From: Sorghum bicolor
Taxonomy: Eukaryota > Streptophyta > Magnoliopsida > Poales > Poaceae
Assembly: GCF_000003195.3 (NCBI RefSeq)
Contig: NC_012873.2
Coordinates: 24,649,317-24,713,316, forward strand
Direction of reading: 5' to 3'
DNA length: 64,000 nt
The translations under genes were made by a program, and so were the position numbers. This document shows, piece by piece, positions 5,193-29,530 of this stretch. Each line of letters begins with the position of its first letter. Position 1 is the stretch's first letter. The notes under the pieces were generated by a model. It worked only from the letters and a program-made list of their open reading frames with translations. It made no database searches and had not been told where the DNA came from.

Positions 5193-5597
5193 TGTAACAG
5201 AACCACCCAAATTATAAGAGATTAAGCCTAATAGTGACCATTTGCATAGTCAAACCATCGAGCTTAAGCCCATATAATCCTGGTAGTCTGTGAAATCTCG
5301 AAGGATTTCAAACCACATATCGTACATACAGCCAAGATCATAATAAGTTTAGCGGTCACCATTCACAATTACATCCAGTTTACAACATTCATAAAATACA
5401 TCGGAGTTCTTAAAACTTATTACAAACCAAGTTCTCAAGTAGCGTAAGCTTCATAGTTTGAAAGTACACACACACACAAATTCAGTTTGATACAGTGCCA
5501 CAGTTTGGTCATTCCCACAAAAGCAAAAGAGAAGACAGAGTGACCATCGCCCTTGGTCTAGTCATCGCCCATCGCTGGGTACAAGCAGAGGATGCAA
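5193..5597 (-). mobile_element. Element B, truncated third LTR
   Basis: The first 0.4 kb (on the + strand) of the B LTR, starting TGTAACAGAACC. It matches 7203-7604 closely. At 5592-5597 the word ATGCAA is shared by the LTR and by the 3' part of the extra ORF (compare 16080s). The sequence switches there from LTR to ORF, so a deletion removed the rest of the LTR plus gag-pol. Confidence 0.85.
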
Positions 5598-6378
5598 GTT
5601 CTCATTGTACTCCTCAGCATTAGCTAGCTGCTGCTCAAGCTCTAGCTGTCGGGCCCTCAGGGTGTCCTCCTCGTGCCAGGCTTCATTCCTCTGACCAAGC
5701 ACATGAACTAGCATGCGCTCGCAGTTCCTATGAGCAGTAGTCACCCTGTCCCTCTGCTCTCTCACTGCGAGCAGGTCTTGACTTAGCTCACTGTTCTTCT
5801 GGACCGCCTGATCATTCTCTTGGGTCACACGGGCCAACTCTGCCTGCAACCTCTCAACCTCAGTGTCGAACTCATGCTGCAGCTGGCGCTTCTCATCCTG
5901 GACTGTGAGAAGAGACCCGCACAAGCGCCCCAAACAATGCTCCAGGCCCCCATAGGTCTTCATCAAGGTGTACATAGCACTCATAGTTGCACTGTCACTG
6001 TGCCGGTCCTCATCCGCACTCCTCTCTAGAGCGTTCACCTCGCACTGTCACTGCGAAGGCTGCCCTGCTGGCACCATGGAAAGGCGTGGTACCTCGGGAC
6101 TCGTACACCCAGCCGCCCCAGGCAGGGTCACCTCCACTGGTAGGGATCATTGCCTCGATCCCCACCAGAGTCCCATCACCGAGCTGCTCTTTGTCCCAAT
6201 AATAGCGAGGTTCCCTTCCTTTGTAATACCCCATCGAACTGAGCACCCTCCATAGCAAGGTGGGCATCCCAAACTCCTCCAGGAACTTGCTCTTATGACG
6301 CGAGCTCCTGGCTGCCAACTGATGGCGAGGGGTCCGCCCACCAGTGGACTTGCGAGCGGTGAGCCTAGTGCGTGCCAT
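5562..6378 (-). pseudogene. H3-tail-like extra ORF, rearranged copy
   Basis: Second copy of the ORF described at 15917-16939. It begins with ATG at 6378 and keeps the H3-like start (ARTRLTARKSTGGRTPRHQ), the globular region and the coiled coil. Two changes break it. An internal loss of about 100 bp near 6033-6055 carries a 12-bp filler copy of GCACTGTCACTG and shifts the frame. The C-terminus is replaced at 5592-5597 by antisense LTR sequence, so the open frame ends in LTR-derived residues at 5562. The glutamine codons that are TAG in the other copy are intact CAG here, which shows what the parent coded. Confidence 0.75.
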
Positions 6379-7188
6379 CTGCTGCAAATGGAATACCTTG
6401 GGTAATATTGCGGATTATCTTTTATTATTATACTTGGAATTGGGACAGATTAAATTAAGGGGAGGAAGTAAGAAATGATATGAAATGAACATGATGCATG
6501 CACGAACTTACGATCTCACAAACATAGAAATAAAAGTTAACACTAATCGGTATATGCGGCGGCACACAACGTTCTCTCATAACGTAACTAGCGTGCTAGG
6601 CGAGAATGTGGTTAGTGTACGTGCAGAAAACTCATTTCAGCCCAACCATATTATGAACATGTAGAACAAGAATCTAAAGCTATACACCCCACACACATAG
6701 ACACCCCATCCATGCATATGACGTGTTGCTACCCCCATCATCGCCCTAGTGACGGCATCGCCTCTCAGGATGGAATTTCCCAACATGCGGCACTGTTCCC
6801 AAACACACCAAACATGTGTGCATGGCACAGCACCTAACAACACTCCCATAGATCGGCAGTGCATCCGATCATGCTCTCACAGCTCCAACTTACCGAGGCG
6901 TAGAGAAAGAATTGATCCACACATTACCATTCAAATGAATGGTACTCATACTATTGCACGCCGTATGAGCGACGAAATAGAAATATGATGCATTAACCCC
7001 CAAGTCAGTACTTAACTAGCCAGCTTAGAGTCCTTAACTGGGCATAGAGGATATGACCATGGCACACTAAATAGTTTTCCAAAAACATAGTTAACACCTT
7101 GATTACCATTTGTTTAACAATAATCTTTTATTAAACCGGTTTAAGTTTAGTTTTGAACGTACTAATGAACAGTAACTCGCTAAACCTT
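6379..7188 (-). other. Element B leader between primer site and extra ORF (copy 1)
   Basis: About 0.8 kb of non-coding leader, nearly identical to 16940-17713. It has several short GC-rich patches but no long frame. Position and length fit a 5' untranslated region for the extra ORF. Confidence 0.6.
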
Positions 7189-7200
7189 GCTCCGATGCCA
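7189..7200 (-). other. Primer-binding site (tRNA-iMet type), element B copy 1
   Basis: On the - strand it reads TGGCATCGGAGC, two bases after the LTR end. It resembles the initiator methionine tRNA primer site TGGTATCAGAGC used by many plant Ty3/gypsy elements. It shows that the LTR at 7203-11113 once served as a 5' LTR for the DNA to its left. Confidence 0.75.
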
Positions 7201-8619
7201 GCTGTAACAGAACCACCCAAATTATAAGAGATTAAGCCTAATAGTGACCATTTGCATAGTCAAACCATCAAGCTTAAGCCCATATAATCCCGGTAGTCCG
7301 TGAAATCTCGAAGGATTTCAAACCACATATCGTACATACAGCCAAGATCGTAATAAGTTTAGCGGTCACCATTCACAATTACATCCAGTTTACAACATTC
7401 ATAAAATACATCGGAGTTCTTAAAACTTATTACAAACCAAGTTCTCAAGTAGCGGAAGCTTCATAGTTTGAAAGTACACACACACAAGTTCAGTTTGATA
7501 CAGTGCCACAGTTTGGTCATTCCCACAAAAGTAAAAGAGAAGACAGAGTGACCATCGCCATTGGTCTAGTCATCGCCCATCGCTGGGTACAAGCAGAGGA
7601 TGCAATAACCATAATACATTTGACCATCTGCAAAACAACATGGGAGTAGAACCCTGAGTACGAGGATGTACTCAGCTAGACTTACCCGTCATAAACCAAA
7701 ATAAAGACTCTTCAAGGATCATGAAGGCTATATAGTGGGGTAGCTGATGACCTTTTTGCATAAAAGCACTATTTCATTAAACATATCCTAAAGGAATCCT
7801 TCTTTTAATTAGCTCAAGTTTGAAGGTATCATTACCTATTATCTAGGTTTGCATCTGCACTATGGCAAACAAATGTAACAATATGATGGTATCTCATCAT
7901 AGCATTCATGGAAATCATTTATCATTATAACCCAAGTGATCCATAGTCCTTACTACGAGGACAGGGCTCATGTCAAGTGCTCACTATCTAGGAGCGATGG
8001 CGATTCGAATCGATTTCTAACCAGCTGGCGAGTTATTCCCCACACAAACCACACTCACTGATCAAGTGAGCTACAGATCACCGTATTACACTATCCAGGA
8101 CCAATTCGCGGGTTCGGCAGGCACCGCTAGTACCCGAGGACTGTTCTGACGACTGAGGTATCCAAGGTATACCAAGGTTGCACGCCGCGCCCTCATCGTT
8201 CTCCTCAACCATCACCAATACAGCGCATGGCTGCTCGACTCCCGGCCCGGATAGTGTTCAGGCTTCGCGGTCGAAACGACTTATCCTTCCAGCTAAGTGT
8301 GGGGCATGCGTTCAACATGACAAGAGGGCCATCAACGATCGGTCCTTAATCGACACAGGCAGGGGCACTACAGTCAACCCACCATAAGACCCTGCTCGGT
8401 CTCAAGTTCCTTTCCACACCTGGTTATTCTTTCCCGAAGCAATCACCGCTTAATCAAGCAGGTATCCACCTATATCTCGCCGGTGACAGGAAATCACCCG
8501 ACTTCTACCGGACTAAGCAAGCTAAGCATAGACTCCGTGCCTATCTACATAGGACAAGGTAGATAACAAGTGGTGATATCAAGGAGTACATATGCATCAA
8601 CGGTATCAAGCAATTCCTA

Positions 8620-8847
8620 TCACTTAAATGCAACATAGTAAAAGAAGCATAATATATTATTTATGTTAGCGAGAATAGGGAGACTTAGAATGCTCCGGGG
8701 CTTGCCTTTCTCAAACGTGCTTGGCTTGTGATCCGGGCACTCCTGCAGCTCTTCTCCGGGCTCCTGTCCTCCCAGAGCTTCCTGCTCCTGGTTCTCCTCT
8801 TGCTCCTCGGGTCCCACCTCGTTCTCCTGCGAGCCTCTATGACGCAA
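8620..8847 (-). other. Conserved small ORF inside the B middle LTR
   Basis: About 75 codons, sense to the element, acidic and Q/E-rich, with the shared ending ECPDHKPSTFEKGKPRSIL followed by SLP. It is paralogous to the C-family LTR ORFs. No ATG opens the frame: it starts at TTG, and an in-frame TGA lies just upstream after CATAG. It would need splicing or a non-AUG start. Function unknown. Confidence 0.4.
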
Positions 8848-9759
8848 GTGTGCTCATGAGTGGAATGCGAGATGCCCGGGGTGCAATGCTCATACGAGAG
8901 GATACCAAATGACCATGACATGATGCATAGATGATTTACGTGGTCATTTTTACAAGGTAGTCAACATCATCCAAGAACATGCAATTACACTAAGCATCTA
9001 TTTCCTTCTCTTCTACAAATTGTCCTCAAGTGTAACCAGCAACTCACAAGATGCTTCAAAGATACACCAAACCCCTTTTATTTTACTTAACTTATGTATA
9101 ACAATTCATAATTTCGTTATCCATTTTTAGGCCTACCAAAAGAGCATACATTCTGCTGATCAATAAATTCCACAAAAATTACAGTAGACCACCAGTCAAA
9201 CATAAAGTCTACCATAAATTTTCCATAATATTTGGACACTTATTTTGAGCTACAAAAATCACAAGATTAATTCATAAAATCAAGTATAAATACTCTACTA
9301 TGGTATAAGTGTCAAACAGCAGATTTCATATTTTTATAATTTACTTATTATCATAAGAAACACCCACAAAAATTTCCAGATTAATTGCATGATCCAATTA
9401 TTTATTAAAAACCATAAACCACATCCATGCAAGCATTTAAATCACCATAAATTCATTCATATAGCAAATAATGTGTAACAAAATTTCCCCAGTGACTAAA
9501 CATCTATGCAGAGCCAACAAAACAAATTTCATATTTTTCTGAGCTATATTTTAATTACTATGCATTTTCCAATTCTAGCAAAAACATGGATTAAATATAT
9601 TTGTACAGAAAAGTTGTTCAAACCTGACATGCAACTACACCAAGCTATAGATCTGGAATTATAGAGTTCATCAAAATTTGTTTCACCAATTTTGGAGCCA
9701 TATAACTCAAGATATGGATTTTACATCATTTAAATCAATTTCTGGAAAACCTTTATTTA

Positions 9760-10620
9760 AGAAAACCGACGGAGAACGTTAGATTCACCCAGATCCACGC
9801 CCGCAGAGGCGCTGACAGGTGGGATCCAGGGATCGTGGCCCCACGGGTCAGCCATGCAGCGCTCCAGCCGACTTCGGCCGGCCAGCTCTCGCCGACGGTG
9901 AGGTCTCCGGTGGCGCGGAGGGCACCGACGGCTTCGTCTCTTCAAGGCGAACACGTTGAGCTAGATCTCATCGACGGAGGAGGTCCCTAGAGGCAGCTAT
10001 GGCGCTCGGCGGAGCTCGGTGGCGTGGCTTACCGGCGTCCGGCCGTCTCCGGCCGATAGAGCGCGAACGGAGGGGTGCTTAGGGTTCTCGGAAGCACGGC
10101 GACCACAATGCACGAACAAACGAAGAGAAAGGGGGTCGGGAAGGGAAAATTCACGCGGACCGAGAGCTCGCCGGAGCTCCGGCCATGTCGCGGCGGTGAA
10201 ATCTCACCTAGTACCTGGACGCTTACGGCCGAGAGTGTGCGCACGAGGTTGCGCTCGTCGGGGCGGAGCTAGGGGCGGGTTTAATCGGGCGCGGGTTACC
10301 GGAGTTGGGCGCTGGGCTTCGGCGCCAATGGCGCACAGCGGAGCGCCGCCGCGGCTGCTGCTGCTCACTCGGGGAGGAAGAAGAGAGGGAGGAGCGGGGA
10401 GACAGAATGGAGTGGCCTAGGGGCGTGGGGCGGCGTCCCGACCAGGTGAAGGCAGGTCGGCCGCGGCGCGTCCACGATACCGGCGTACGGCCGCCACGTG
10501 GCCGGCGCCGGGTGGAGCGAGGCGGGCGCCGCACGCGGGAGAGAGAGGGGAGGGGAAGCGCGCCGCGCTGTCTGGCTGGGCCGAAAGGGAGGCGGGTCGG
10601 CCCAGCAGTGCCTGTCCCCT
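9760..10620 (-). other. GC-rich, CpG-rich island in the B middle LTR
   Basis: The LTR is AT-rich except for this block, which is rich in CG dinucleotides and CGG/CCG words and resembles the 5' end of a grass gene. Several overlapping frames are open on both strands, which is expected of GC-rich DNA, so I do not call any of them a gene. The homologous block is at about 19990-20850. It lies 0.5-1.35 kb from the LTR start in sense direction. Confidence 0.5.
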
Positions 10621-11100
10621 TTTCTTTTTTTTTAATTTTTTTTCTCCAAAAAGTTTAAATGTGATTTTTGAAGCTTTTACAGAACTTTTCAGGGGTTGGA
10701 GTAAAAAGAAGAATTGTTACCCATAAAATTCCCTACAACTTTGCTTTAATAAGTGAAGCCAAATTCCAAATAGAATTTGAATCACAGATTAAAACTAGTT
10801 CTAGGTTTTTAAATAAATTCATTTTAGGGATTTTTGTATAAATTCCATTTCTCAAATCCTATGGCTCCAAATATTTCACAAATTTACTCTTAAACCTTTT
10901 AACAGACAATTCAACCTAATTTGAATATTTCACAATTTTAGAAGCAAGCATAATATTTTTAATCATATTTAATTCACCTAAAATAAAGCACACATAAAAT
11001 CACACTTGAATTATTATTATGCTCATGGGATGTGATGCTTATGCCATGCTTGATAAGAATGCTTATGAATATTTTATGAGACTAAGTGCATGGTTAACAC

Positions 11101-11499
11101 CTAGGGTGTTACAGCCCTTCCCCCCTTAGGAAAATCTTGTCCCGAGATTTGGGTTACTAACCATTTCTTATAAAATTTTGGGTAAACTGTTTTTAGGTAA
11201 TCCTCGGTTTCCCAGGTGGCATCCCTATTATCATGATGACTCCACACCACCTTGTATGTTTTGACAACTCTGTTCCGGGTTACCCTCTCCTTGGTATCTA
11301 CGATACCCACTAGCTGCTCCCTATACTCTAAGTCTGCTTTTATTTTGATTCCTCGGGGTTCAATCCTTTGCTCGGGTACTTTCAAACATTTCCGTAGCTG
11401 GGACACATGAAAAACTGGAAAGATTGAGCTCAACTCTTCAGGTAACTGAATCTTGTAGGCCACAGGGCCTTTTCTCTCTAGTATCTGATATGGTCCCAC
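11101..11499 (-). CDS. Element B integrase C-terminus with chromodomain
   Basis: An open frame of 132 codons with the integrase tail (GPYQILERKGPVAYKIQLP, FPVFHVSQLRKCL) and then a chromodomain (YREQLVGIVDTKERVTRNR, YKVVWSHHDNRDATWETED, YLKTVYP). In chromoviruses this domain directs integration to heterochromatin, and in some families it binds methylated H3 tails. The W of VVWSHH fits one cage residue, while the other aromatic cage positions look replaced, as in group II plant chromodomains. It is the end of a longer pol protein, separated from 11521 by a short frame break. The stop lies in the LTR. Confidence 0.8.
   Translation of the reverse strand: MGPYQILERKGPVAYKIQLPEELSSIFPVFHVSQLRKCLKVPEQRIEPRGIKIKADLEYREQLVGIVDTKERVTRNRVVKTYKVVWSHHDNRDATWETEDYLKTVYPKFYKKWLVTQISGQDFPKGGRAVTP
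11114..11127 (-). other. Polypurine tract, element B
   Basis: On the - strand it reads AAGGGGGGAAGGGC and touches the 3' LTR start TGTAACACC. Here it also lies inside the end of the pol frame (KGGRAVTP), whose stop is formed by LTR bases at 11101. Confidence 0.8.
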
Positions 11500-11520
11500 A
11501 TATTTAGGTGCAAGCTTGCT

Positions 11521-12478
11521 TCAAACTCGGAAACGCTGAACTTTCTTCATTGGCATAACCTTGAGGTAAACATAGTCACCTACATTGAATTCAAGTGGCC
11601 TTCTTCGCTTATTGGCATAACTCTTTTGTCGCGATTGTGCCGCCTTCATATGTTGTTGTATGATTTCCACTTTTTCCTCAGCCTCGTTCACGAAGTCGAT
11701 GCCATAGTATCTCCTTTCACCAGGTTCGACCCAGTTTAACGGAGTTCTACATTTACGACCATACAACGCTTTGAACGGAGCCATCTTGATACTCTCTTGA
11801 TAGCTATTATTGTATGAGAATTCGGCCAGGGGTAACCATGATTCCCATGATCCCTTGGAACATAGCACACAGGCCCTCAGCATATCTTCTAACACTTGAT
11901 TTAGCCTTTCAGTTTGACCCGAGGTCTGGGGATGATATGCTGTGCTTCTTATCAGACTAGTCCCCAAACTCTTATGCATTCGCTCCCAAAAGTGAGCGGT
12001 GAACTGTGGTCCTCTATCTGATATGATGGTTTTGGGAATGCCATGTAACTTGACGATCTCAGATATATATATCAGCATACTCGGGAGGTCGGTAACGAGT
12101 TTTCACAGGAATGAAATGAGCCGACTTGGTTAATCGATCTATGATCACCCAAATCGAGTCATTCCCCTTTCCTGTTGTCGGTAAACCTGTGATAAAGTCC
12201 ATGCTGACCTCTTCCCATTTCCACTCTGGAACTGACAACGGTTGCAACAGTCCTGGGGGTTTCATATGTATAGCCTTAACTCTGCAACATGTGTCACAAC
12301 GGGCCACATATGTTGCTATTTCTTTCTTCATCCAAGTCCACCAAAAGTGAGATCTTAGGTCTTGATACATCTTACTACTGCTAGGATGAATAGAAAGCTT
12401 GGAGAGATGTGCTTCATCCATGATGCGATTCTTTAAGTCTCGAATCTTCGGACCTACTAGCCGGTGTTGAAACCACAA
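11521..12478 (-). pseudogene. Element B integrase core
   Basis: Two overlapping open frames cover the zinc-binding start (LSIHPSSSKMYQDLRSHFWW, CDTCCRVK) and the catalytic core: MDFITGLP with the first D, IISDRGPQF with the second D, and the E-containing QTERLNQVLEDML. The frames meet near 12059-12078, where a frameshift interrupts the protein. The role is insertion of the cDNA into the host chromosome. Confidence 0.8.
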
Positions 12479-12514
12479 TACCCCTTTTCATCAACTCTGA
12501 ATTGAGTCCTTGGG

Positions 12515-12940
12515 TCATCTTTGATCTTTTCTTTGATGTGGAAAAATACCCTTGTCTGTTTTCTGACCTTCGATGACTTGACTTTCAAGCGAATAACTGA
12601 GCTGTATGTGACATAAGACTTCAGGGTGCATGAGATTGAAACCATCCTCAAACAACGGTTGAACCACTTGATAGTGCGGTTTGCGACTCAATGCATCCGC
12701 TACCACATTAGCCTTGCCTGGATGATAGTGAACCTCTAGATCATAATCCTTGATCAGTTCGAACCATCTTCGTTGCCTCATATTCAGCTCAGACTGAGTG
12801 AAAATATATTTCAAACTTTTATGATCTGTGTAGATATGACACTTGTTTCCTAGCAAATAGTGCCTCCAGATCTTCAAAGCGTGCACCACTGCTGCTAACT
12901 TGAGGTCGTGAGTTGGGTAGTTGACTTCATGCTTTCTCAA
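12515..12940 (-). pseudogene. Element B RNase H and integrase linker
   Basis: The frame shows the end of RNase H ([57 protein letters not shown]). This enzyme would remove the RNA strand during reverse transcription. The stretch 12941-13384 on the same strand holds the RT thumb and first RNase H part with several in-frame stops. Confidence 0.75.
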
Positions 12941-14317
12941 CTGTCATGAAACGTAAGCTATTACTATGCCGTCTTGCATTAGCACACATCCTAACCCACT
13001 TTTCGATGCGTCGCAAAACACATCAAAAGGCTTTTCGATATTGGGTTGCACTAGAACGGGAGCGGTGGTTAGCAACTTTCGCAAGGTGCGGAAGGCTAGC
13101 TCACACCCTTCCGTCTAGACAAACTTATGACCTTTTTGTAGCAAACAGGTCATTGGCTTAGGAATCTTGGAGAAATCGGGTATGAAACGGCGGTAATACC
13201 CAGCTAGACCAAGAAAATTCCGAACTTCCGAGACAGAAGTTGGTGCCTTCTAGTCCATGACTTCTTGCACTTTCGACGGATCCACCGCAATCCCTTCTTC
13301 AGACAGAATGTGCCCTAGGAAAGGAACTTTCTTTAACCAGATCTCACACTAGCTGAACTTTGCATACAACTGATGCTCTCGTAGTCATGTTAGCACGACT
13401 CTCTGATGCTCGGCGTGATCTTGCTCATTTTCTGAATAAACCAGAATGTCGTCGATGAACACCACAACAAACTTGTCCAGCTCTGGCATAAAGACCGAAT
13501 TCATCAGATACATGAAGTATGCAGGAGCATTTGTCAACCCGAAGGACATAACAAGATACTCGTACAACCCATATCTGGTAGAAAAAGCAGTCTTCGGGAT
13601 ATCTTGCGGACGGATCTTGATTTGGTGATACCCGGACCACAAATCTATCTTGGAAAACACTTTTGCCTTGGACAACTGATCAAACAAAATATCAATCCTT
13701 GGCAATGGATACTTATTCTTGATTGTCACCGCATTGAGTGGACGATAGTCCACGCACATGCACAGCGATTGATGCTTCTTTTTCACAAACAATGCCGGAC
13801 AACCCCACTCTGTCGAACTTAGCCGGATGAACCCTTTATCAAGTAATTCCTTTAGTTGATTCTTCAATTCAGCGAGCTCATTAGGCGACATCCGGTATGG
13901 CCTTCTTGATATCGGTGCGGTACCTGGTAGCAACTCTATTTCAAACTCTACTTCCCTATCTAGGGGAAGTCCTGGTAATTCTTCAGGAAAAACATCAGGG
14001 AACTCATAGACTACTGGGATCTGTGGTAGTGGGACCACGTGCGTAGCACAAGAGACGCTTGCAAAGTCAAAGCGACGGGGCAGAGGTACTTGAAAAGACC
14101 CACTGCTCTGGGGTTCTCTCAGAGATAACACCCTCTTCCCGGTATCTATGACAGCATCCCACTCTTTCATCCAGTTCATGCCCATGATAACATCCAAAAC
14201 TAACCCAGGCATGACTACCAGATTTACTCGAAACACCCGGTTACTTATATCCAGGGTTGCCCCTCGGACCACTCTATTTGTCAACACATCTGCCCCCACT
14301 GAGCTGATGCATAGCAA
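12941..14317 (-). pseudogene. Element B protease end and reverse transcriptase
   Basis: The frame from 14317 to 13385 is open. It holds the end of the protease (VDVI-type [14 protein letters not shown]), the pol linker ([19 protein letters not shown]) and most of [31 protein letters not shown] and the catalytic [13 protein letters not shown], with FIDD at 13448-13459. Downstream to 12941 the RT thumb and RNase H continue with stops. The extent and order match a Del/Tekay chromovirus. RT would copy element RNA to DNA in the virus-like particle. Confidence 0.85.
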
Positions 14318-14700
14318 TAACCCAGATCTATAACTGTTTGGTTATTCTTTTGTGCAAATGCTTGGCTCATAAATGAATGCGATGATCCAGAATCAAACAA
14401 AACAACTGCAAGATGTTGTTTGATAGGAAACATACCAGTTGTTACCGGTTCTCCTTCCGGAATCTCCTCTATCGAGGTATGGTGCACTCGAGCTGGGTAG
14501 GTCGTCTGTTGCCTCTTGGGGTAGGGACATTCCTTAGCAAAGTGCCCCATCTTGTGGCAGTTATAGCACGGACCCTTGTCATGTTGTTGGTGGCTGGTGT
14601 TGTAGCTTGAATTGCTTTTGGCTTGGCAGGAGCTATTGCCACCTTGTACGGCTTCTGCTGTGTTGGATGCCCGGTGTTCCTTTTCTGCGGCGGTCGGAAC
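14281..14700 (-). pseudogene. Element B gag zinc knuckle and protease start
   Basis: Reads a CCHC knuckle (CYNCHKMGHFAKEC, near 14530-14570), which binds RNA in the particle, and then the protease active site LFDSGSSHSFM. A frameshift separates this from the gag frame above (stop at 14730) and another separates it from the RT frame below. Confidence 0.8.
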
Positions 14701-14729
14701 CTACCACCTAGGGCAGGAGGACGATACTG

Positions 14730-15599
14730 CTATCGCCCTGCCATTGGTGCCCTGGACTGAGATGACCCGGCTTCAAAAGCCCTCTTACGAGACTTGGATG
14801 CACTATAGTTGTTGTTATTGTTCTCCTGGGTCAGACAGTCACTGATGTAAGCATTGAAGGTAGCCCGAGTTCCTGTACCCATGGTCTTCAGTATCTTTGG
14901 GTTCAAACCTCTCTGGAAACTAGCGATCTTCTTGGCCTCCATGTTCACAAACTCGGGGGCGTAGCGAGCAAGAGTATTGAAAGCGTGTAGATACTCCTTC
15001 ACAGACTTCGTTCCCTGAGACAGCCTCATGAACTCCTCAACCTTCATTTCAACCACGCCCGGAGGAATGTAATTTCCCCGGAAAGCGGTGGTGAAGCGGT
15101 TCCAGGTAATTGGGGTCCCCTCTAGGTAGGTGGTACGGTGATGGGACCACCAAATCCCAGCAGGTCCCTGCAACTGGTGCACCGCATACTCAACCTTAAG
15201 TTCTTCAGTCATTCGAAGAAGACGGAACTTTTGCTCCATGGTGTTGATCCACTCATCTGCCTCAAGCGGCTCTAATGCCTCCTTGAAGACTGGTGGTTTG
15301 GTGTCCATGAAGTCCTTGAAAGAGCTGTACTGATTGACTTCACGGCCGCCCTGGTTATCCCCACGGCGGGTATTGTCGGCGATATTGCGCAGAGCTTCTT
15401 CCATATTGCGCTGCATCTGTTCCATATTGCGTTGGCTCCCCAGAAACTGCACGAAGAACACGTCCGCAGTATATGGAGGAGGAGGTGGTGGTGGCGGTGA
15501 TGGTGCCCTATCCTCATTCTGACGAGCCCCACCTCCAGAACTACCTGCTCCAAGACCGGGGTTGCTGTTACCCCCGCCACGTGTTTGCACCATCTGCAT
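14730..15599 (-). pseudogene. Element B gag, capsid part
   Basis: It opens with ATG at 15599 (MQMVQTRGGG) and has 289 codons. The N-terminal part is G/P-rich, with a run of prolines coded near 15480-15500. It is followed by the retrotransposon gag domain (ADEWINTMEQKFRLLRM, GPAGIWWSHHRTTYLEGT, ITWNRFTTAFRGNYIPPGV, FMRLSQGTKSVKEYLHAFN). The frame ends in TAG at 14730-14732 before the zinc knuckle, which continues in another frame. Gag would form the particle shell. Confidence 0.85.
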
Positions 15600-15916
15600 G
15601 CGTCAATGATAAGCAATCGTTAGGAGTTGCCATCAATGGTAGACATGTGTAGAATTGTGCCGTACTGAATTTACTGAGGAAATAAATTCGCATAATAAAC
15701 AGAGGCACAACAATTCATCATCCACATACAACATCACTAACAGATTACTTAACATTCAAGCAACAAGGTTCGCATACATCCAAAATTGCCAGCATACATA
15801 CACTGGACTTTCAGTGTTATCACATTAAGTTTTACACAGCCCAGATTCAAAAGTACAAGACATGCCATGCAACAGCAACAACAAAAGAAGGGGGACTAGC
15901 TCTATAGCCCTAGCAT

Positions 15917-16939
15917 CTACTCGCTATGGTCACTGTCCACACCGGAGCCCTCCTCGTCCTCATCTCCACTAGCAGCTGCCTCTATCTCTGGATCCTCATC
16001 CATCTCATCCTCAGAGTCTAACTCGGCTACTCCAAGCAGGTGATGAGGGTGGAGCTGATTATGCAGCTGGTGGATCTCCTCATGCAAGTTCTCATTGTAC
16101 TCCTCAGCATTAGCAAGCTGCTACTCAAGCTCTAGCTATCGGGCCCTCAGGGTGTCCTCCTCGTGCCAGGCTTCATTCCTCTGACCAAGCACATGAACTA
16201 GCATGCGCTCGCAGTTCCTATGAGCAGTAGTCACCCTGTCCCTCTGCTCTCTCATTGCGAGCAGGTCCTGACTCAGCTCACTATTCTTCTGGACCGCCTG
16301 ATCCCTCTCTTGGGTCACGCGGGCCAACTCTGCCTGCAACCTCTCAACCTCAGTGTCGAACTCACGCTGCAGCTGGCGCTTCTCATCCTGGACTGTGAGA
16401 AGAGACCCACACAAGCGCCCCAAACAACGCTCCGGGCCCCCATAGGTCTTCATCAAGGCGTACATAGCACTCATAGCTGCACTGTCACTGTGCCGGTCCT
16501 CATCCGCACTCCTCTCTAGAGCGTTAAATTCGGACTGATCCCACACCGAAGTGTAGGGGTCACCCCGGGGAAACACCCCAGCGAAGGCGTGGGCCAGCTC
16601 CTATGGGAACCTCTCCATGAGGTCCCTCAGAACTGCGAAGGCTGCCCTGCTGGCACCGTGGACTCGTACCCAGCCGCCCCAGGCGGGGTCACCTCCACTG
16701 GTAGCGACCACTACCTCGATCCCCACCAGGGTCCCATCACCGAGCTGCTCCTTGTCCCAATAATAGCGAGGTTCCCTTCCTTCGGGATACCCCATCGAAC
16801 TTAGCACCCTCCATAGCAAGGTGGGCATCCCAAACTCCTCCAGGAACTTGCTCTTATGACGCGAGCTCCTGGCTGCCAACTGATGGCGAGGGGCCCGCCC
16901 ACCAGTGGACTTGCGAGCGGTGAGCCTAGTGCGTGCCAT
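15917..16939 (-). pseudogene. H3-tail-like extra ORF between leader and gag
   Basis: A single frame of 341 codons from ATG at 16939 to TAG at 15917-15919, interrupted by three TAG codons (16598-16600, 16133-16135, 16118-16120). Residues 2-20 read ARTRLTARKSTGGRAPRHQ. Seventeen of the first 21 positions equal the histone H3 tail, and the ATG sits exactly where it does in H3. Then comes a globular region (about 30-125; YYWDKEQLGDGTLVGIEV, PAWGGWVRVHG, AAFAVLRDLMERF). A long coiled coil follows (about 150-270; VERLQAELARV, ELSQDLLAMREQRDRV, LELEQQLANAEEY read through stops). The end is acidic (DSEDEMDEDPEIE, GDEDEEGS). It lies upstream of gag in sense orientation. No known function. Two of the stops are CAG in the sister copy. 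Confidence 0.8.
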
Positions 16940-17713
16940 TTGCTGCAAATGGAATACCTTGGGTAAGATTGAGAATTATCTTTTATTATTATACATGGAA
17001 TTGGGACAGATTAAATTAAGGGGAGGAAGTAAGCAATGATATGAAATGAACATGATGCATGCATGAACTTACGATCTCACAAACTTAGAAATAAAAGTTA
17101 ACACTAATCGGTATATGCGGTGGCACACAACGTTCTCTCATAACGTAACTAGCGTGCTAGGCGGGAACGTGGTTAGTGTACCTGCAGAAAACTCATTTCA
17201 GCCCAACCATAGTATGAACAAGCAGAACAAGAATTTAAAGCTATACACCCCACACACATAGACACCACGTCCATGCATATGACGTGTTGCTACCCCCATC
17301 ATCGCCCTAGTGACGGCATCGCCTCTCAGGATGGAATTTTCCAACATGTGGTACTGTTCCCAAACACACCAAACATGTGTGCATGGCACAGCACCTAACT
17401 GTGATAGCTCCCACTTAACGAGGCGTAGAGGAAGAATTGATCCACACATTACCACTCAAATGAATGGTACTCATACTATTGCACGCCGTATGAGCGACGA
17501 AATAGAAATATGATGCATTAACCTCCAAGTCAGTACTTAACTAGCCACCTTAGAGTCCTTATCTGGGCATAGAGGATATGACCATGGCACACTAAATAGT
17601 TTTCCAAAAACATAGTTAACACCTTGATTACCATTTGTTTAACAATAATCTTTTATTAAACCGGTTTAAGTTTAGTTTAGAACGTACTTATGAACAGTAA
17701 CTCGCTAAACCTT
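16940..17713 (-). other. Element B leader (full copy)
   Basis: Non-coding DNA of about 0.77 kb between the primer site and the extra ORF. It is nearly identical to 6379-7188. I see no convincing gene in it. Confidence 0.6.
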
Positions 17714-17725
17714 GCTCTGATGCCA
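17714..17725 (-). other. Primer-binding site (tRNA-iMet type), element B
   Basis: On the - strand it reads TGGCATCAGAGC, two bases from the 5' LTR end (TGTGACAG at 17728). It has one mismatch to the common TGGTATCAGAGC. Confidence 0.85.
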
Positions 17726-18852
17726 GCTGTGACAGAACCGCCCAAATTATAAGAGATTAAGCCTAATAGTGACCATTTGCATAGTCAAACCATCGAGCTT
17801 AAGCCCATATAATCCCGGTAGTCTGTGAAATCTCGAAGGATTTCAAACCACATATCGTACATACAACCAAGATCGTAATAAGTTTAGCGGTCACCATTCA
17901 CAATTACATTCAGTTTACCCATCATAAACCAAAATAAAGACTCTTCGAGGATCATGAAGGCTATATAGTGGGGTAGCTGATGACCTTTTTGCATAAAAGC
18001 ACTATTTCATTAAACATATCCTAAAGGAATCCTTCTTTTAGTTAGCTCAAGTTTGAAGGTATCATTACCTATTACCTAGGTTTGCATCTGCACTATGGCA
18101 AACAAATGTAATAATATGATGGTACCTCATCATAGCATTCATGGAAATCATTTATCATTATAACCCAAGTGTTCCATAGTCCTTACTACAAGGACAGGGC
18201 TCATGTCAAGTGCTCACTATCTAGGAGCGATGGCGATTCAAATCGATTTCTAACCAGCTGGCGAGTTATTCCCCACACAAACCACGCTCACTGATCAAGT
18301 GAGCTACAGATCACCGTATTACACTATCCAGGACCAATTCGCGGGTTCGGCAGGCACCGCTAGTACCCGAGGACCGTTCCGGCGACCGAGGTATCCAAGG
18401 TATACAAAGGTTGCGCGCCGCGCCCTCGTCGTTCTCCTCAACCATCACCAATACAACGCATGGCGGCTCGACTCCAGGCACGGATAGTGTTCAGGCTTCG
18501 CGGTCGGAATGACTTATCCTTCCCGCTAAGTGTGGGGCATGCGTTCAACATGACAAGAGGGCCGTCAACGATCCATCCTTAATCGACACAGGCAGGGGCA
18601 CCATAGTCAACCCACCATAAGACCCAGCCCGGTCTCAAGTTCCATTCCACACCTGGTTATTCTTTCCCGAAGCAATCACCACTTAATCAAGCAGGTATCC
18701 ACCTATATCTCGCAGGTTACAGGAAATCACCCGACTTCTACCAGACTAAGCAAGCTAAGCATAGACTCCGTGCCTATCTACATAGGACAAGGTAGACAAC
18801 AAGTGGTGATATCAAGGAGTACATATGCCTCAACGGTATCAAGCAATTCCTA

Positions 18853-19080
18853 TCACTTAAATGCAACGTAGTAAAACAAGCATAATATATTATTTATGTT
18901 AGCGAGAATAGGGAGACTTAGAATGCTCCGGGGCTTGCCTTTCTCAAACGTGCTCGGCTTGTGATCCGGGCACTCGTGCAGCTCTTCTCCGGGCTCCGGT
19001 CCTCCTAGAGGTTCCTGCTCCTGGTTCTCCTCTTGATCCTCGGGTCCCACCTCGTTCTCCTGCGAGCCTGTATGATACAA
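18853..19080 (-). other. Conserved small ORF inside the B 5' LTR
   Basis: Counterpart of 8620-8847 with a few substitutions. It retains ECPDHKPSTFEKGKPRSIL and the acidic, Q/E-rich centre. Its frame is intact in both LTRs of B. Confidence 0.4.
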
Positions 19081-19989
19081 GTGTGCTCATGAGTAGAATG
19101 CGAGATGCCCGGGGTGCAATGCTCATACGAGAGGATACCAAATGACCATGACATGATGCATAGATGATTTACGTAGTCATTTTTACAAGGTAGTCAACAT
19201 CATCCAAGAACATGCAATTACACTAAGCATCTATTTCCTTCTCTTCTATAAATTGTCCTCAAGTGTAACCAGCAAGTCACAAGACGCTTCAAAGATACAC
19301 CAAACCCCTTTTATTTTACTTAACTTATGTATAACAATTCATAATTTCGTTATCCATTTTTAGGCCTACCAAAATAGCATACATTCTGTTGATCAATAAA
19401 TTCCACAAAAATTACAGTAGACCAGCAGTCAAACATAAAGTCTACCATAAATTTTTCATAATATTTGGACACTTATTTTGAGCTACAAAAATCACAAGAT
19501 TAATTCATAAAAGCAAGTATAAATACTCTACTGTGGTATAAGTGTCAAACAGCAGATTTCATATTTTTATAATTTACTTATTATCATGAGAAACACCCAC
19601 AAAAATTTCCAGATTAATTGCATGATCCAATTATTTATTAAAAACCATAAACCACTGCCATGCAAGCATTTAAATCACCATAAATTCATTCATACAGCAA
19701 ATAATGTGTAACAAAATTTCCCCAGTGACTAAACATCCATGCAGAGCCAACAAAATAAGTTTCATATTTTTCTGAGCTATATTTTAATTACTATGCATTT
19801 TCCAATTCCAGCAAAAACATGGATTAAATATATTTGTACAGAAAAGTTGTTCAAACCTGACATGCAACTACACCAAGCTATAGATCTGGAAATATAGAGT
19901 TCAACACAATTTGTTTCACCAATTTTGGAGCCATATAACTCAAGATATGGATTTTACATCATTTAAATCAATTTCTGGAAAACCTTTAT

Positions 19990-20850
19990 TTAAGAAAACC
20001 GACGGAAAACGTTAGATTCACCTAGATCCACACCCGCAGAGGCGCTGACAGGTGGGATCCAGGGATCGTGGCCCCACGGGTCAGCCATGCAGCGCTCCGG
20101 CCGACTTCGGCCGGCCGGCTCTCGCCGACGGTGAGGTCTCCGGTGGCGCGGAGGGCACCGACGGCTTCGTCTCTTCAAGGACGTTGAGCTAGATCTCATC
20201 GACGGAGGAGGTCCCTAGTGGCAGCTATGGCGCTCGGCGGAGCTCGGTGGCGCGGCTCACCGGCGTCCGGCCGTCTCCGGCCGATAGAGCGCGAACGGAG
20301 GGGTGCTTAGGGTTCTTGGAAGCACGACGACCACAACGCACAAACAAACGAAGAGAAAGGGGGTCGGGAAGGGAAGATTCGCGCGGACCGAGAGCTCGCT
20401 GGAGCTCCGGCCATGTCGCGACGGTGAAATCTCACCTAATACCTGGACGCTTACGGCCGAGAGTGTGCGCACGAGGTTGCGCTCGTCGAGGCGGAGCTAG
20501 GGGCGGGTTTAATCGGGCGCGCGTGACCGGAGTTCGGCGCTGGGCTTCGGCACCAATGGCGCACGGCGGAGCGCCGCCGCGGCTGCTGCTGCTCTCTCGG
20601 GGAGGAAGAAGAGAGGGAGGAGTGGGGAGACAGAATGGAGTGACCTTGGGGCGCGGGGCGGCGTCCTAACCAAGTGAAGGCGGGTCGGCCGCGGCGCGTC
20701 CACGACGCCGGCGTACGGCCGCCAAGTGGCCGGCGCCGGGTCGAGCGAGGCGGGCGCCGCGCGCGGGAGAGATAGGGGAGGGGAAGCGGGCCGCGCTGTC
20801 TAGCTGGGCCGAAAGGGAGGCGGGTCGGCCCAGCAGCGCCTGTCCCCTTT
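19990..20850 (-). other. GC-rich, CpG-rich island in the B 5' LTR
   Basis: Same block as 9760-10620. The two copies differ by scattered, mostly CG-related transitions and small indels. No reading frame stands out. Confidence 0.5.
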
Positions 20851-21342
20851 TCTTTTTTTTTCAATTTCTTTTGTCCAAAAAGATTAAATGAGATTTTTGA
20901 AGCTTTTACAAAACTTTTCAGGGGTTGGAGTAAAAAGAAGAATTGTTCCCCATAAAATTCTCTACAACTTTGCTTTAATAAGTGAAGCCAAATTCCAAAT
21001 AGAATTTGAATCACAGATTAAAACTAGTTCTAGGTTTTTAAATAAATTCATTTTAGGGATTTTTGTATAAATTCCATTTCTCAAATCCTATGGCTCCAAA
21101 AATTTTACAAAACTACTCTAAAACCTTTTAACACACAATTCAACCTAATTTGAATATCTCACAATTTTAGAAGCAAGCATAATATTTTTAATCATATTTA
21201 ATTCACCTAAAATAAAGCACACATAAAATCACACTTGAATTTTTGTTATGCTCATGGGATGTGATGCTTATGCCATGCTTGATGAGAATGCTTATGAATG
21301 TTTTATGAGACTAAGTGCATGCTTAACACCTAGGGTGTTACA

Positions 21343-21347
21343 CGCTC
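21343..21347. repeat. Target-site duplication CGCTC, right of element B
   Basis: Pairs with 5188-5192. Confidence 0.9.
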
Positions 21348-21999: not shown

Positions 22000-22004
22000 A
22001 TAAC
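22000..22004. repeat. Target-site duplication ATAAC, left of element C
   Basis: ATAAC before the LTR start TGTCACAAAACC; the same five bases follow the other LTR at 39514-39518. Confidence 0.9.
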
Positions 22005-23454
22005 TGTCACAAAACCGACCAAATTATAAGAGTTCAAGTGTAGAAACGATCAACTAGCAATCAAGTTTCCAGACTTGAGCCTATATAATCCCGGTAGTCA
22101 ACTGAAATCACGAAGGACTTCAAACTAACTTGCAACAAACCAAGATCGTAATAGTTCAACATAACACAGCGAATGTTACATAGTCATTCATTGCCGTCGA
22201 AGTGGCACCACATCAGAGTTACTTAGTTATTACAACACAAGTCTTGGAGTAGTGGAAGCAAAATAGTTTACCACACACATTCATTTCACAAGTTCTTGTT
22301 ACTGCCAGAGTCTCATGCCATCCATCAAAAGCAACAGGTACGAAGTCGTTAGAGAACCGTGCCCAACGGTTTAGTCCTCATCCCCAACGGAATGGAGACA
22401 TGTCTTGCAGAAGCCATCATAAAACATATTATTTGCAATAGGTGGGAATAAACCCTGAGTACGAGGATGTACTCAGCTAGACTTACCCGTCTAGTAAAAC
22501 ATAAAAGACACCAAGGATCATGCAAGTCTGAGTATAAAGTGTAGCTGGCTTGACTCGACATTTGCCAAAACTTAAGTGGATACTATACCATTTGTAAAAA
22601 GCATCATATTAGTCATCATTAGCCTACCACTAAATTAACACCTAGACTAAGCACTTCACCTTGATTATTACAAACAATAATAACCATATCAAGTTCATCA
22701 TATGTTCTTCCTTGCTACCATCATATCATTATGAAGAACCATAGTACTTAGTGAATGCTACGTTTGCTGCTCCTCTGTCAAGTTCTCACTATCTGGGAGA
22801 GACGGCGATTCGAATCGATTCCTATCCAGCTGGAGGGTTATTCATAGCACTCACCCAAGCATCCCCCGTCGGAGAGCAAGCGGGTCACCTTTTGTACGAC
22901 TCAGGAATCGCGGCTCCGATCAGCGCCGCACTCCCAGGGCTACCACTCTGCCAGGGAGGTCAGGACTTTTAACTCACCTACCTTTGGGGCTTACGCCAAT
23001 GGTCCCCCGCACACCGCACTTCCGCCGGTAGTGCACACATTAAACTTGCCGATCTTCCGGCCTGAGTCATACTACTAGGCTTCGCGGTCGGAATGAGTTA
23101 TCCGGCCAACTAAGTGTTAGGCATGCGTTCAACATGACAAGAGGACGTACAACGATCGGTCCTTAGCTGCCACAGATGGTGTTACTACAACCTTGCAAAA
23201 CTCCACTCGGCTTAAGTCATTTTAATCAGGTTCTTTTCCACGATAGCACATATAGTCAACCGTGATCCGACACAACAATATTTCGCGCAGGTGACAGTTA
23301 AAGCATGGCTAAGCTGCTACTCGATCCTAACTCTATAACCAGGAAGTGGTAAGATATCTAGACAAGGAAAAGAGTATAATGCAGCAAGGGTTTCATCATA
23401 ACACCTATACGTAATGCATCAATAGACATAACATAATCAAGTATACTTTCGAAA

Positions 23455-23706
23455 TTAAAGTGGGACACTTAAGATGCTCCGGGGCTTGCCTTTCACGAAC
23501 GAGGCTGGCTCGTGATTAGGGCACTCGACCTCCTCTTCTGGCTCTTCGTGTGCGGCTGGCTGGACCACCACTTCCAGACTGATCTCCTGGCCTTCGGGGT
23601 TCGCTTGATGAAGCTCGAACGAAGCTGTCGCTTCCGGTGCACCTATTGCATGCACGATGAGTAAGAAATGTGTGCATACTAGATGAGGATGAACGCTTGG
23701 TAACAT
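23455..23706 (-). other. Conserved small ORF inside the C 3' LTR
   Basis: 83 codons starting with a true ATG at 23706. The first part is hydrophobic (LVCTHFLLIVHAIGA), the centre acidic, and the end is ECPNHEPASFVKGKPRSIL. The best-formed member of the LTR small-ORF set. The 5' LTR copy lost its end by a small deletion at about 36604. Confidence 0.45.
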
Positions 23707-24969
23707 AATTAGAACTTCACTGGATACTCATTTACGGAGTAACTCCCAAAACAAGCTCACACAAGATAACTAACTAACTTAGCCAGATTTAGCAAGTCAA
23801 ACCATAGACAGCAACGACCAAATAACAGAGCAGCTCACGGAATAAATTATAACCAAAGCTCTACAGATCCAACAAACATGAATGAGGACATTCTGGAAAT
23901 CTTATGAAATTGTCTACATTTTATCTTTAGACATCACAGCAAGATTGACAAGTTTAACAGGTCAATTAAACAAAGTTCCAGGTTCTGTCTCAGGAAAACA
24001 GAGAACACCTATTTCTGGAACCCAACTTGTAAGAGCCATAACGTTTAAACTACCGGACCAAATGATCCCAAATTTGAACTTCAGCCAGTTCATAAAGTTT
24101 ACAACATCTTTGATTAAGACAAGTCTTCCAGAAAACTAAGTTAACATCAAGCAAAGGTCAGATTACTCCCTTGCTGTCCAGAACAGCTTATGAACCTTTA
24201 ATTAATTATTTGATGACATAGCCAAAACATATTTAGTGCCAACCAAATGGCTTACAAGCACAAGCAGAGCCTAAGATTACCAGAACATCACATGTTGACC
24301 ACTAAACATTCAATAACATGGCATTTATTAATTTAATTCCATAAAAGGACATAATTACAAGATATCAGCAAAAGTGCTCAGAAAAATCTACAAAAATTAC
24401 AAAAGCACACGCATAGCATCTTGACATTACCAAAAAATTTTCAGAACAATTGCACATGCCAAACTTAAGATAAGCATTTAACATGTAACATGGTGCTTAT
24501 TTCATAAATTAAGAAACATGGCTTAGATAATGTCAAACAACATATTTCAGATTATTTACATGTTACTATTACTATGAACAAGCTTGACACCAAAGTAGAA
24601 CACCGGCATAAGCACCAAACATTTATTATGATTTAAATATGAAAAAAAGCCATAGGATCAATATAAATTACATATCAGAGATACAATACTCTAGAAATCA
24701 TGAAATATTTATCATAGCATTCTCATATCAATAAGAGCCTACCATAAAATTTTACAGCAAAAGGAGCAGTATACCAAAAGATATGAATTTATATTCAAAT
24801 AACAAGATTAAATCATAACAATTATTTTTCTCAGAAAACATGGTGCATAATATATATTTATTAAAAACTAGCCATCTCATGGATCATCACAAAATTTATT
24901 TCACAATTTTTGGATCTCAGGAACTGGAGGTATGATTTTTGCAAAAACAGCACAAACCCTAATTTCAAA

Positions 24970-25530
24970 CAAAGAAGAAAGAGAGATTGACAGGGGGACC
25001 CCACAGGTCAACGGACCCCACTCGTCAGTGACCCGAGAGCAGAAGCGAGACTTGACCGCCGGAGATCTAGTCGACGGCGAGGTCTCGACGACGGCCAAGA
25101 GCACCATCGTGCTCCTCACTCCACTACGCGGCGATTGGTACCGGAAACCCTAACTCTACCGCACCCTAGGGACCTTGCACTCGCGAATGGCGGCACGACG
25201 GAGAGGACAATGCGGGCTTAGCAAGGCTCGGCAGCCGCAGCCAACACGACGACGGTGAAGCGGGCAAGCTGGCGGAGCACTGGGTGGAGTCGCTCGGTCG
25301 GAGGTGCCGAGACGCGAGCGCGCGAGCTCGCCGAAACAGCGGCGGCGACGCGGAGAAGACGATGAGCGTGAGAGAGAGCAAACCAGAGGGGAAAAGGCGT
25401 TGTCCACGCGACCGGGGGCGTCGTGGCGACCTGGAGGATGCGCTGGGAGCTGACAAGTGGGACCAACGGCGATGTACGGACGCCACGAGTCCAAACACGC
25501 GGCGTCACCGGCGAGCTCATCCCCACTAAC
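24970..25530 (-). other. GC-rich island in the C 3' LTR
   Basis: A CpG-rich block, shortened compared with the 5' LTR copy (38060-38820) and D (30620-31340). Several frames are open on both strands, none clearly coding. Confidence 0.5.
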
Positions 25531-26211
25531 GCTGCCTCCATTCAGTTAGAGAGCCGACTGAAACTCGATTTTGAACTTCGATTATCTCCGAAACCAATCC
25601 TGATTTTGCTGGCTAATTGCTCAATGTTGTAGATCTACATGAAGACTCCAACTTTGCTTACAAGATCAATACTTGATTCGGCATGGATTTCAAACTAGAA
25701 GCTAATCAAACCACCCTCAAGCAAACTGGTGTGATCCCAGACTTAGAAAAATTTCTAAGTGTTGGAAACAGCCCCAAATCTGCCTTGTGGGCCACTTTTG
25801 AGCTAGATGTGATCATTTTCATGAGATCGCAATAAAACAACTTTTGTTCCTTATAAAATTTTCTACAACTTTGCTGTAGAAAGTTTTGACATGCAAATAC
25901 TCTATGAAGCACTTTTTAAAAGCCTATAAAAGGAAGTATGACTTAGGTACTTAATTTGGAGATGTTACCAACATGAACATTGTTCCAAAATTGGAGTTAA
26001 GCATAGATGAACTATCTACCAAGGCATAGAACACAATCATGAGCATGACACAAGCAACCATAAGCATAGGAAGCATATTTAAGCAAGTTAAATCACACTT
26101 TAGCATAGAATAACATGACCCAAGGTAAATGATGATCATGATATGCTTATGAAGATGACGATGCTCATGTTATGCATGTGAATGATGCAACCATAATACT
26201 GGAGTGTTACA

Positions 26212-26224
26212 GCCCTCCCCCCTT
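26212..26224 (-). other. Polypurine tract, element C
   Basis: On the - strand it reads AAGGGGGGAGGGC, next to the 3' LTR. Same design as in element B. Confidence 0.8.
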
Positions 26225-26227
26225 ACA

Positions 26228-27424
26228 AAAATCTCATCCCGAGATTTGGAAGCTTACTAATTTTCGAAGAAGGTTTTATAAACTTCTTTTAAATAGTCCT
26301 CTGTTTCCCAAGTGGCATCTTCCTCCCCGTGGTTACTCAACAACACCTTGTAGAACTTTCTTCAATTGTGATACGTGAAAGACTGGAAAAATAGCTCAAA
26401 GCTCAACTGGTAGTTGAACTTTGTATGCCACATTCCCTTTTCTCTCGGAAATCCGATAAGGCCAGACATATCGAGGCGCACGCTTTCGCTTGACTCTGAA
26501 CCTTTGTACGCCTTTCATCGGAGACACCTTGATATACACATGGTCACCGACTACAAACTCAATCGGCTTCCTTCTCTTATCAGCATAACTTTTCTGACGA
26601 GCTTGAGCAGCTTCCAGATGTTGCTGGATGGTAAGAACTTGCTGCTCCGCTTCGTTCACGAAATCGATGCCATAATACCTTCGCTCCCCGGATTCCACCC
26701 AATTCAATGGGGTTCGACACTTTCGACCATATAGGGCTTCAAATGGAGCTATCTTGATGCTCTCTTGGTAACTGTTGTTATAAGAGAACTCAGCTAACAG
26801 TAACCACTTTACCCAAGAACCTTTTGAAGAGAGAGCACATGCTCTCAACATGTCTTCTAGGATTTGGTTAACACGTTCAGTTTGGCCAACCATTTGAGGA
26901 TGATATGCAGAACTACGGACCAAGTGAGTACCAATTTGCTCATGAAGACACTCCCAAAAATGGGCAGTGAACTGTGGTCCACGATCTGATATGATAGTCC
27001 GAGGCACACCATACTGACGGACAATGTGCTCGAAGTACAACTCTACATATTGATGTGGACGATAATCAGTTCGAACTTGAATAAAATGAGCAACCTTGGT
27101 CAAGCGATCTACAATCACCCAGATAGAGTCGTAACCCATAACAGAAGTTAAGAGTCCAGAGATAAAATCCATACTAACTTCTTCCCATTTCCAACCAGGA
27201 ATTGACAAGGGTTGAAGTAAGCTTGCTTTCATGTGAACTGCCTTCACACGACAACGGTTATCACAACGAGCGACAAAAGCAGCAATCTCCTTTTTCATCT
27301 TTGTCCACCAAAACAGAGGTTTCAGACCCTGATACATCTTGCTACAACCAGGATGGATAGACAACTTGGACGAATGAGCTTCAGATAAGATCTGATTTCG
27401 CAGCTCACGGTCTTTTGGGACCAC
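26228..27424 (-). pseudogene. Element C integrase with truncated chromodomain
   Basis: The frame 27424-26396 holds a nearly complete integrase: LSIHPGCSKMYQGLKPLFWW, CDNRCRVKAVH, MDFISGLL, IISDRGPQF, QTERVNQILEDML and the tail YRISERKGNVAYKVQLPVEL. A stop follows at 26396. In the remaining 0.17 kb the chromodomain keeps only its second half (HGEEDATWETEDYLKEVY). Compared with B, about 45 residues between the SQLRK-like and KVVW-like parts are gone. It lies directly before the polypurine tract. Confidence 0.85.
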
Positions 27425-27529
27425 AAGTCGATCTTTGAACCATAGGATCCCATTCTCATCGACTCGGAAATGCTTGGTTTCTTCTTATTTCATTTTCCTC
27501 TTTATATGGTAGATGCCTACATCTGTTTG

Positions 27530-28786: not shown

Positions 28787-28831
28787 TACCGAATATCCTT
28801 GATGGCCCTAGATGTAACTGCATTCATCGTG

Positions 28832-29518: not shown

Positions 29519-29530
29519 TAGAGCCTTGGA

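Follow-up and report, generated by a model that had tools for sequence, protein, structure and literature searches.

Plants silence transposons via H3K9me2 by SUVH/KYP and CMT proteins, and it is an open question how very-high-copy plant retrotransposons escape this silencing long enough to amplify. In Sorghum bicolor, a retrotransposon carries ahead of its gag gene an open reading frame (ORF) that begins like the tail of histone H3, and the question raised by this locus is what such a tail may be doing there. An element protein that copies the silenced tail, with K9 kept above all, may imitate the very tag that is used against the element. A sequence-only reading of the same DNA had interpreted the ORF as a possible H3 tail mimic that could recruit the element's own integrase or another H3 reader or writer; the present analysis retains a putative H3 tail mimic under constraint and drops the recruitment of the integrase. 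In the following, the window denotes the whole stretch of DNA analysed, with a length of 64,000 nucleotides.

The H3-like ORF and its host element

The ORF occupies positions 15917-16939 of the window on the minus strand, which corrects the strand in the sequence-only reading. Read from 16939 to 15917, its translation displays the N-terminus MARTRLTARKSTGGRAPRHQLA with the opening residues MARTRLTARKSTGGRAPRHQLAARSSRHKSKFLEEFG. The opening stretch, written MARTRLTARKSTGGRAPRHQLAAR, is identical to H3 in 18/22 positions with Met (12/15, 15/19 and 18/24 over the shorter and longer stretches, Met counted; the H3 reference letters match those in the PDB alignments). The previously claimed identity of 17/21 residues after Met was matched exactly in a recount. 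The H3-like tail, residues 1-24, maps to 16868-16939 (minus), and its K9 equivalent is residue 10 counting Met. A chance resemblance to H3 was considered and rejected: in a scan of ATG codons on both strands of the window (n=2,597), more than 7/24 matches are displayed only by this ORF (18/24) and by its own second copy at 6378 (17/24), and 100,000 draws from the composition of the ORF itself reach a maximum of 9/24 matches.

phmmer analysis of the ORF against PDB chains displays histone H3 as the best match (E 1.4e-5, residues 1-24), and among the best 60 of 132 PDB matches the alignment ends by residue 32. Pfam scans at E up to 1 display no core-histone family, and hence no histone fold after the tail; the sole histone-related match is PF15715 (PAF) at residues 1-32, with E 0.31 and 12.3 bits at a cut-off of 23.4. 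The likeness to H3 thus stops shortly after the tail, and other structure is predicted downstream. The first ~25 residues probably derive from the H3 tail. The copy in the window is dead. It had been taken as open, and displays in-frame stops at codons 113, 268 and 273; about 7 residues present in relatives are missing from it in the alignment.

Residues about 33-118 (16586-16843, minus) are assigned to a double-stranded RNA-binding domain (dsRBD) fold, transferred from the model of the relative P0009, from fold matches and from the alignment. The predicted order in this middle region is alpha-beta-beta-beta-alpha. A Pfam scan at E up to 1 returned no dsRBD family for the window piece, P0001, P0007, P0009 and P0013. 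The RNA-contact lysines of dsRBDs form a KKxAK motif at the start of helix 2; this motif is found in 0/14 covering rows of a 20-row alignment, and Pro stands in the place of its first Lys in 14/14. Residues about 160-300 (16040-16462, minus) form a long-helix, coiled-coil-like region that contains the conserved LHEEIHQLHNQLHP motif close to its end, and the acidic C-terminal end (15920-16009, minus) contains 15 Asp or Glu and no Lys or Arg among 30 residues. Structure models predict the long helix with the dsRBD (P0009, residues 159-296) as well as without it (P0101, residues 36-131); the tail is unstructured and of low confidence in both models. Pfam matches of the coiled-coil region were generic and below their own cut-offs, and were set aside. 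A second conserved motif, LHEE[VI]HxLxxQLxP, is observed in the C-terminal third of most subfamilies, followed by the acidic end; P0195 is an exception. This motif is a candidate for the other functional site of the protein.

The host of the ORF is a tandem retrotransposon at 5193-21342 (minus), delimited by self-BLAST and LTR ends, with the structure LTR, internal region, LTR, truncated internal region, LTR end. Its LTR ends read TGTAACACC...TGT[CT]ACA, and it is flanked by the target-site duplication GAGCG at 21343-21347 on the 5' side and at 5188-5192 on the 3' side. According to self-BLAST, the first (5') LTR spans 17728-21342 and the second 7203-11113 (both minus; 3.6 and 3.9 kb), with 96.0% identity over 3433 aligned bases. 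A primer-binding-site-like sequence, TGGCATCAGAGC (17714-17725, minus), follows 2 bases after the first LTR and is one base away from the usual initiator-Met tRNA site. Downstream of ORF0 lie gag (14730-15599, minus; Retrotrans_gag, E 8.7e-23), several broken ORFs with protease and pol pieces (RVP_2, RVT_1, RT_RNaseH, Integrase_H2C2 and rve; 11521-14550, minus), of which the integrase core piece rve alone is below the Pfam cut-off, and an integrase chromodomain (11173-11331, minus). The polypurine tract AAGGGGGGAAGGG (11115-11127, minus) precedes the second LTR, after which come a second leader and the start of a second ORF0. This second H3-like copy, detected by self-BLAST at 5593-6378 (minus), is frame-broken and truncated and continues into LTR sequence, being joined directly to the last 405 bases of a third LTR (5193-5597, minus).

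The order of gag, protease, RT, RNase H and integrase between LTRs, together with the primer-binding site and polypurine tract, is that of a Tekay/Del chromovirus, and a sense ORF between 5' LTR and gag with LTRs above 3 kb corresponds in position to ORF0 of the Retrosat2 type. The ORF is hence ORF0, the 5' accessory gene of a chromodomain retrotransposon whose Tekay-type lineage is assigned by anatomy; the anatomy of the element and the H3 resemblance of the ORF are in our view nearly certain. Since GAGCG is found at both outer ends, the locus is most simply explained by one insertion that was later turned into a tandem, with subsequent loss of a part of the second unit. An ORF inside a 5-kb LTR was considered, as the ORF occurs after two LTRs, and rejected in favour of the tandem element: primer-binding-site-like sequences follow 17728 and 7203, an LTR ends cleanly at 5193, and a target-site duplication is present. 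Tandem retrotransposons are reported to be frequent in plants, with an enrichment of the Tekay lineage among them in rice (PMC11899658).

Two sequences in the element resemble possible 3' splice sites: TTTGCAG at 16943-16949, 3 bases ahead of the ORF0 start, and GCATGCAG at 15594-15601, which abuts the second gag ATG. Splicing was considered as a way of expressing both ORF0 and gag; a simple pyrimidine-tract scan picked out neither of these CAG-ending sequences, and no donor-like site was seen. Elsewhere in the window, a second long-LTR element lies at 22004-39513, with gag-pol on the minus strand and direct LTRs at about 22004-26211 and 35169-39513 (self-BLAST); a related LTR in inverted orientation (29916-34335) apparently interrupts this element. 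A tblastn search of this element for an H3-like ORF gave 72 weak rows (E up to 0.5, 28.6-35.3 kb), and the best 12 of 72 contained no convincing ORF0. Near 34.5 kb, the leader of this element is similar to the upstream part of P0019. Self-BLAST also displays a 720-base direct repeat (49206-49925 and 56070-56788), whose copies share 95.7% identity at a distance of about 6.9 kb and may be the LTRs of a further element.

Conservation of the tail and of the K9 position

Protein searches returned 20 matches, at least 1160 matches (best 120 listed, from 7991 scored candidates sharing most words) and 147 matches (best 120 listed), and 256 distinct proteins were retrieved. This retrieval favours query-like sequences, the contig-predicted proteins may include decayed copies, and the label "grass" for the relatives rests on the sequence-only reading and on the published distribution. 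Scans of viral contigs and genome contigs returned no DNA of the relatives. Open ORFs are present among the relatives, for example P0009 (326 aa), P0014 (194 aa) and P0101 (186 aa). A tail combined with a dsRBD-like domain is displayed by P0009, P0023 and P0076; P0001 and P0007 join this class by homology, their called ORFs starting after the tail. Many relatives keep the tail without the dsRBD, and P0014, P0101, P0138, P0195, P0251 and P0252 consist of tail and helix only.

A hidden Markov model (HMM) of the tail, whose source sequences were chosen partly by a motif in the second half of the tail, matches 166/256 relatives. Judged by their first residues, and without inspection of each, the other 90/256 mostly start at an internal Met or within the tail; for P0001 (204 member sequences), P0007 and P0011 the called start is a Met that lies after the tail, and P0013 has a different N-terminus. 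P0252 begins with MARTKQTARK unchanged and alone matches H3 with E 0.014. A large class with starts like MPPRTRKTARKSTGPIGVPRHQLAPR (MPPRT; P0122, P0034) carries one extra residue and by itself can hardly be recognized as H3-like: P0122 alone gives E 0.95 with the H3 peptide and E 0.29 with a Cse4 chain. Removal of the Met had been expected to expose A1-R2-T3, which does not hold in general given the MPPRT class; readers that clasp a free N-terminus are hence not the common target.

For alignment, 136 of 257 sequences (the 256 relatives and the window ORF) were selected by a PRHQL-like stretch near the N-terminus and a LHEE-like motif. Clustering at 90% gave 48 sequences, and after removal of P0078 (odd N-terminus) and re-trimming of four starts 47 representatives remained. 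The mean site rates (LG+F+R4) are 0.61 for the 23 tail columns and 1.05 for the 166 others (one-sided Mann-Whitney without the Met column, p 7.6e-6). The slowest stretch of 20 occupied columns is the tail (0.63-0.68), followed by the LHEE motif (0.71). In 55/55 pairs drawn from 11 hand-picked clade representatives, identity is higher in the tail than elsewhere in the protein, with means of 0.72 versus 0.32. Together with the residue counts given below, this speaks, at the level of proteins, against the lack of tail constraint that would have refuted the sequence-only reading: the first ~25 residues of ORF0 appear to be maintained by selection, and purifying constraint on the tail is in our view likely.

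The position corresponding to H3-K9 is Lys in 162/163 tail-matching proteins (Met in P0156) and in 47/47 representatives; Arg occurs there in 0/163. The position of H3-K4 is Arg in 104/159 tail-matching proteins (representatives: Lys 25, Arg 21, Trp 1), and that of H3-K14 is Lys in 41/165 and another residue in 124/165 (representatives: Ile 19, Lys 18, Arg 6, His 3, Ser 1). The absence of Arg at K9, while it is common at K4, points to a modifiable lysine or a lysine-specific pocket and not to charge alone; lysine codons hold no CpG, and part of the contrast between Lys and Arg sites may therefore be mutational. R8 is Arg in 133/163, His in 16, Cys in 12, and Tyr and Gln in 1 each; the changes to His and Cys would be the pattern expected from methylated-CpG decay in dead copies. 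P16, H18, Q19 and L20 of the tail are conserved as well. The position of H3-K18 is His in 161/164 tails (representatives: His 46, Tyr 1), which gives a nearly invariant P-x-H-Q-L-A that is absent from H3 itself.

The tail thus displays a conserved H3-like sequence around a putatively modifiable lysine, as expected of a candidate histone mimic. For mammalian EHMT1/2, the "RK" core is described as needed and the residue after the lysine as the most variable (PMC10611923). RK is kept in 130/161 tails, and the full mammalian EHMT motif from the same text fits 24/161, owing to Pro at A7 in 37/161 tails and His at S10 in 92/163. By sequence comparison, the mimicry is imperfect in most members.

Possible roles of the tail

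Based on this dataset, another H3 reader or writer would be the best remaining reading of the tail, and a partner that handles K9 seems somewhat probable. We hypothesize that the ORF0 protein forms an elongated helix, probably oligomeric, of which one end bears disordered H3-like tails and the opposite end is acidic; in some subfamilies a predicted dsRBD of the DRB/Dicer type is inserted. Each tail would offer a methylatable lysine in an R8-K9 setting to a host H3K9 enzyme or reader; such a multivalent decoy may titrate or redirect the host H3K9 factor, and H3K9 silencing would be weakened while the element is expressed. Proteins of 5' extra ORFs in grasses are predicted to be nuclear (PMC11728184). 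The H3 resemblance, the position of the ORF, the near-invariance of K9, the slow evolution of the tail and the predicted architecture are shown by the data above; for the decoy we infer origin, nuclear action, oligomer, partner and anti-silencing outcome alike, and we regard it as a tentative reading with somewhat less than an even chance of being correct.

The same partner would serve a tether, in which the host methylates K9 of the tail, a host H3K9 reader binds, and ORF0 is thereby carried to heterochromatin together with cDNA, Gag or integrase, which would guide integration or retention in the nucleus. We consider this rather unlikely. It would explain the same near-invariance of K9, and automethylated H3 mimics in G9a and GLP are described as making HP1-binding sites (PMC9768651). 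However, membership of ORF0 in an integration complex is unsupported. Chromodomains use A7 of H3, and this residue is Pro in 37/161 tails, which argues against the tether.

Alternatively, the tail may be a basic peptide descended from H3 for nuclear import or nucleic-acid binding, with K9 kept for an importin or RNA. The H3 tail carries a nuclear import signal, the window tail contains 7 Lys or Arg and no acidic residue among 24, and the nuclear prediction for grass ORF0 proteins (PMC11728184) would suit such a role. A role of charge alone would allow the replacement of K9 by Arg, however, which is found in 0/163 tails in spite of the frequent Arg at K4; K14 is not Lys in 124/165, and conservation extends to P16, H18, Q19 and L20, which carry little or no charge. 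This explanation appears unlikely.

That the tail is a relic, i.e. a fragment of an H3 gene that was taken up as the 5' end of the reading frame and has been carried without function, agrees with the broken state of both the window copy and its tandem twin and with the capture of cellular genes reportedly proposed in a survey of 2011; it is made improbable by the conservation of the tail in relatives, where the tail is the slowest 20-column stretch and K9 is nearly invariant across clades that average 32% identity elsewhere.

The element encodes an integrase chromodomain, as had been noted before, at 21.1 bits in Pfam (Chromo, E 0.00029; cut-off 25.1), with PDB matches to 2m2l (E 1.4e-4) and Clr4 (E 0.0021). 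Of its aromatic cage, the middle Trp is kept, the third aromatic is His in 3/3 alignments (2m2l, Clr4, CDYL), and the first is Glu in a hand extension of the Clr4 alignment. The domain thus lacks a full cage and fits group II (Tekay-type) chromodomains, which are reported to be without the first and usually without the third aromatic (PMC3350952, PMC6317226). Reading of the tail by the chromodomain encoded downstream in the same element, as the claimed recruitment of its own integrase requires, is therefore very improbable.

Returning to the decoy, its generalization would be a widespread family of transposon pseudo-histone tails, in which oligomers encoded by many plant retrotransposon subfamilies would show H3K9-like lysines to counter H3K9 silencing. 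In some of them, a DRB/DCL4-like dsRBD that binds proteins would extend this action to small RNAs, and one protein would thus reach both arms of transposon silencing. At present this is a doubtful extrapolation from the relatives described here.

Comparison with known systems

The sequence-only reading named no described function for the ORF. The position of the ORF is that of the published ORF0, or 5' extra ORF, of Retrosat2, RIRE3 and RIRE8. The 5' extra ORFs of Poaceae chromoviruses surveyed by Steinbauerova et al. in 2011 are said to share this 5' position and in some cases to be partially similar to histone H3; cellular gene capture was reportedly proposed there, and the survey is not known to describe a K9-specific constraint, a dsRBD or a mechanism. 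The H3 resemblance itself is thus probably already in print. In the open-access literature searched, which does not include Steinbauerova et al. 2011, no plant retrotransposon is described as encoding an H3 mimic with constraint on K9. As far as this literature shows, the K9-specific constraint, the tail in subfamilies without a dsRBD and the mechanism are added here.

PCNA-associated factor has an H3-like N-terminus, and its family (PF15715, "histone like domain") matches the tail weakly; no other PAF features were found in the ORF.

ORF0 of the rice elements Retrosat2, RIRE3 and RIRE8 and of FRetro3 likewise lies upstream of gag-pol (Gao et al. 2012, PMC3485330). Retrosat2 and FRetro3 are described there as longer than 12 kb with LTRs above 3.2 kb, comparable to the LTRs of 3.6 and 3.9 kb in the window. 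That source predicts mostly hydrolase-like enzymes for ORF0, and the word "histone" has 0 occurrences in its text. If the decoy reading is true, it would provide a function for ORF0, which was in print by 2012 without one. For the 5' additional ORF of maize and sorghum Tekay elements, a study from 2024 describes a weak Foldseek likeness to a DRBM protein (TM 0.35-0.37), a long C-terminal helix and a predicted nuclear location (PMC11728184). "Histone" has 0 occurrences in that text, whereas the tail is kept here by many relatives that lack the dsRBD. Neither "ORF0" nor "histone" occurs in the text of a review on additional ORFs of plants.

Outside of this group, VANC of VANDAL transposons is, like ORF0 here, a transposon factor proposed to act against host silencing (PMC10398659). 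VANC is a sequence-specific DNA-binding protein with reported anti-silencing, whereas the anti-silencing by ORF0 is a proposal of ours. The automethylation sites of G9a/GLP and the sites in LIG1 and WIZ (PMC9768651, PMC10611923) share with ORF0 an ARKS/RK-type lysine in a non-histone protein. Those mimics are short motifs of host proteins, whereas the tail described here is an N-terminal stretch of 20-odd residues on a transposon protein; if our reading is true, ORF0 would represent a rare case of a transposon that encodes a long histone mimic at a protein N-terminus.
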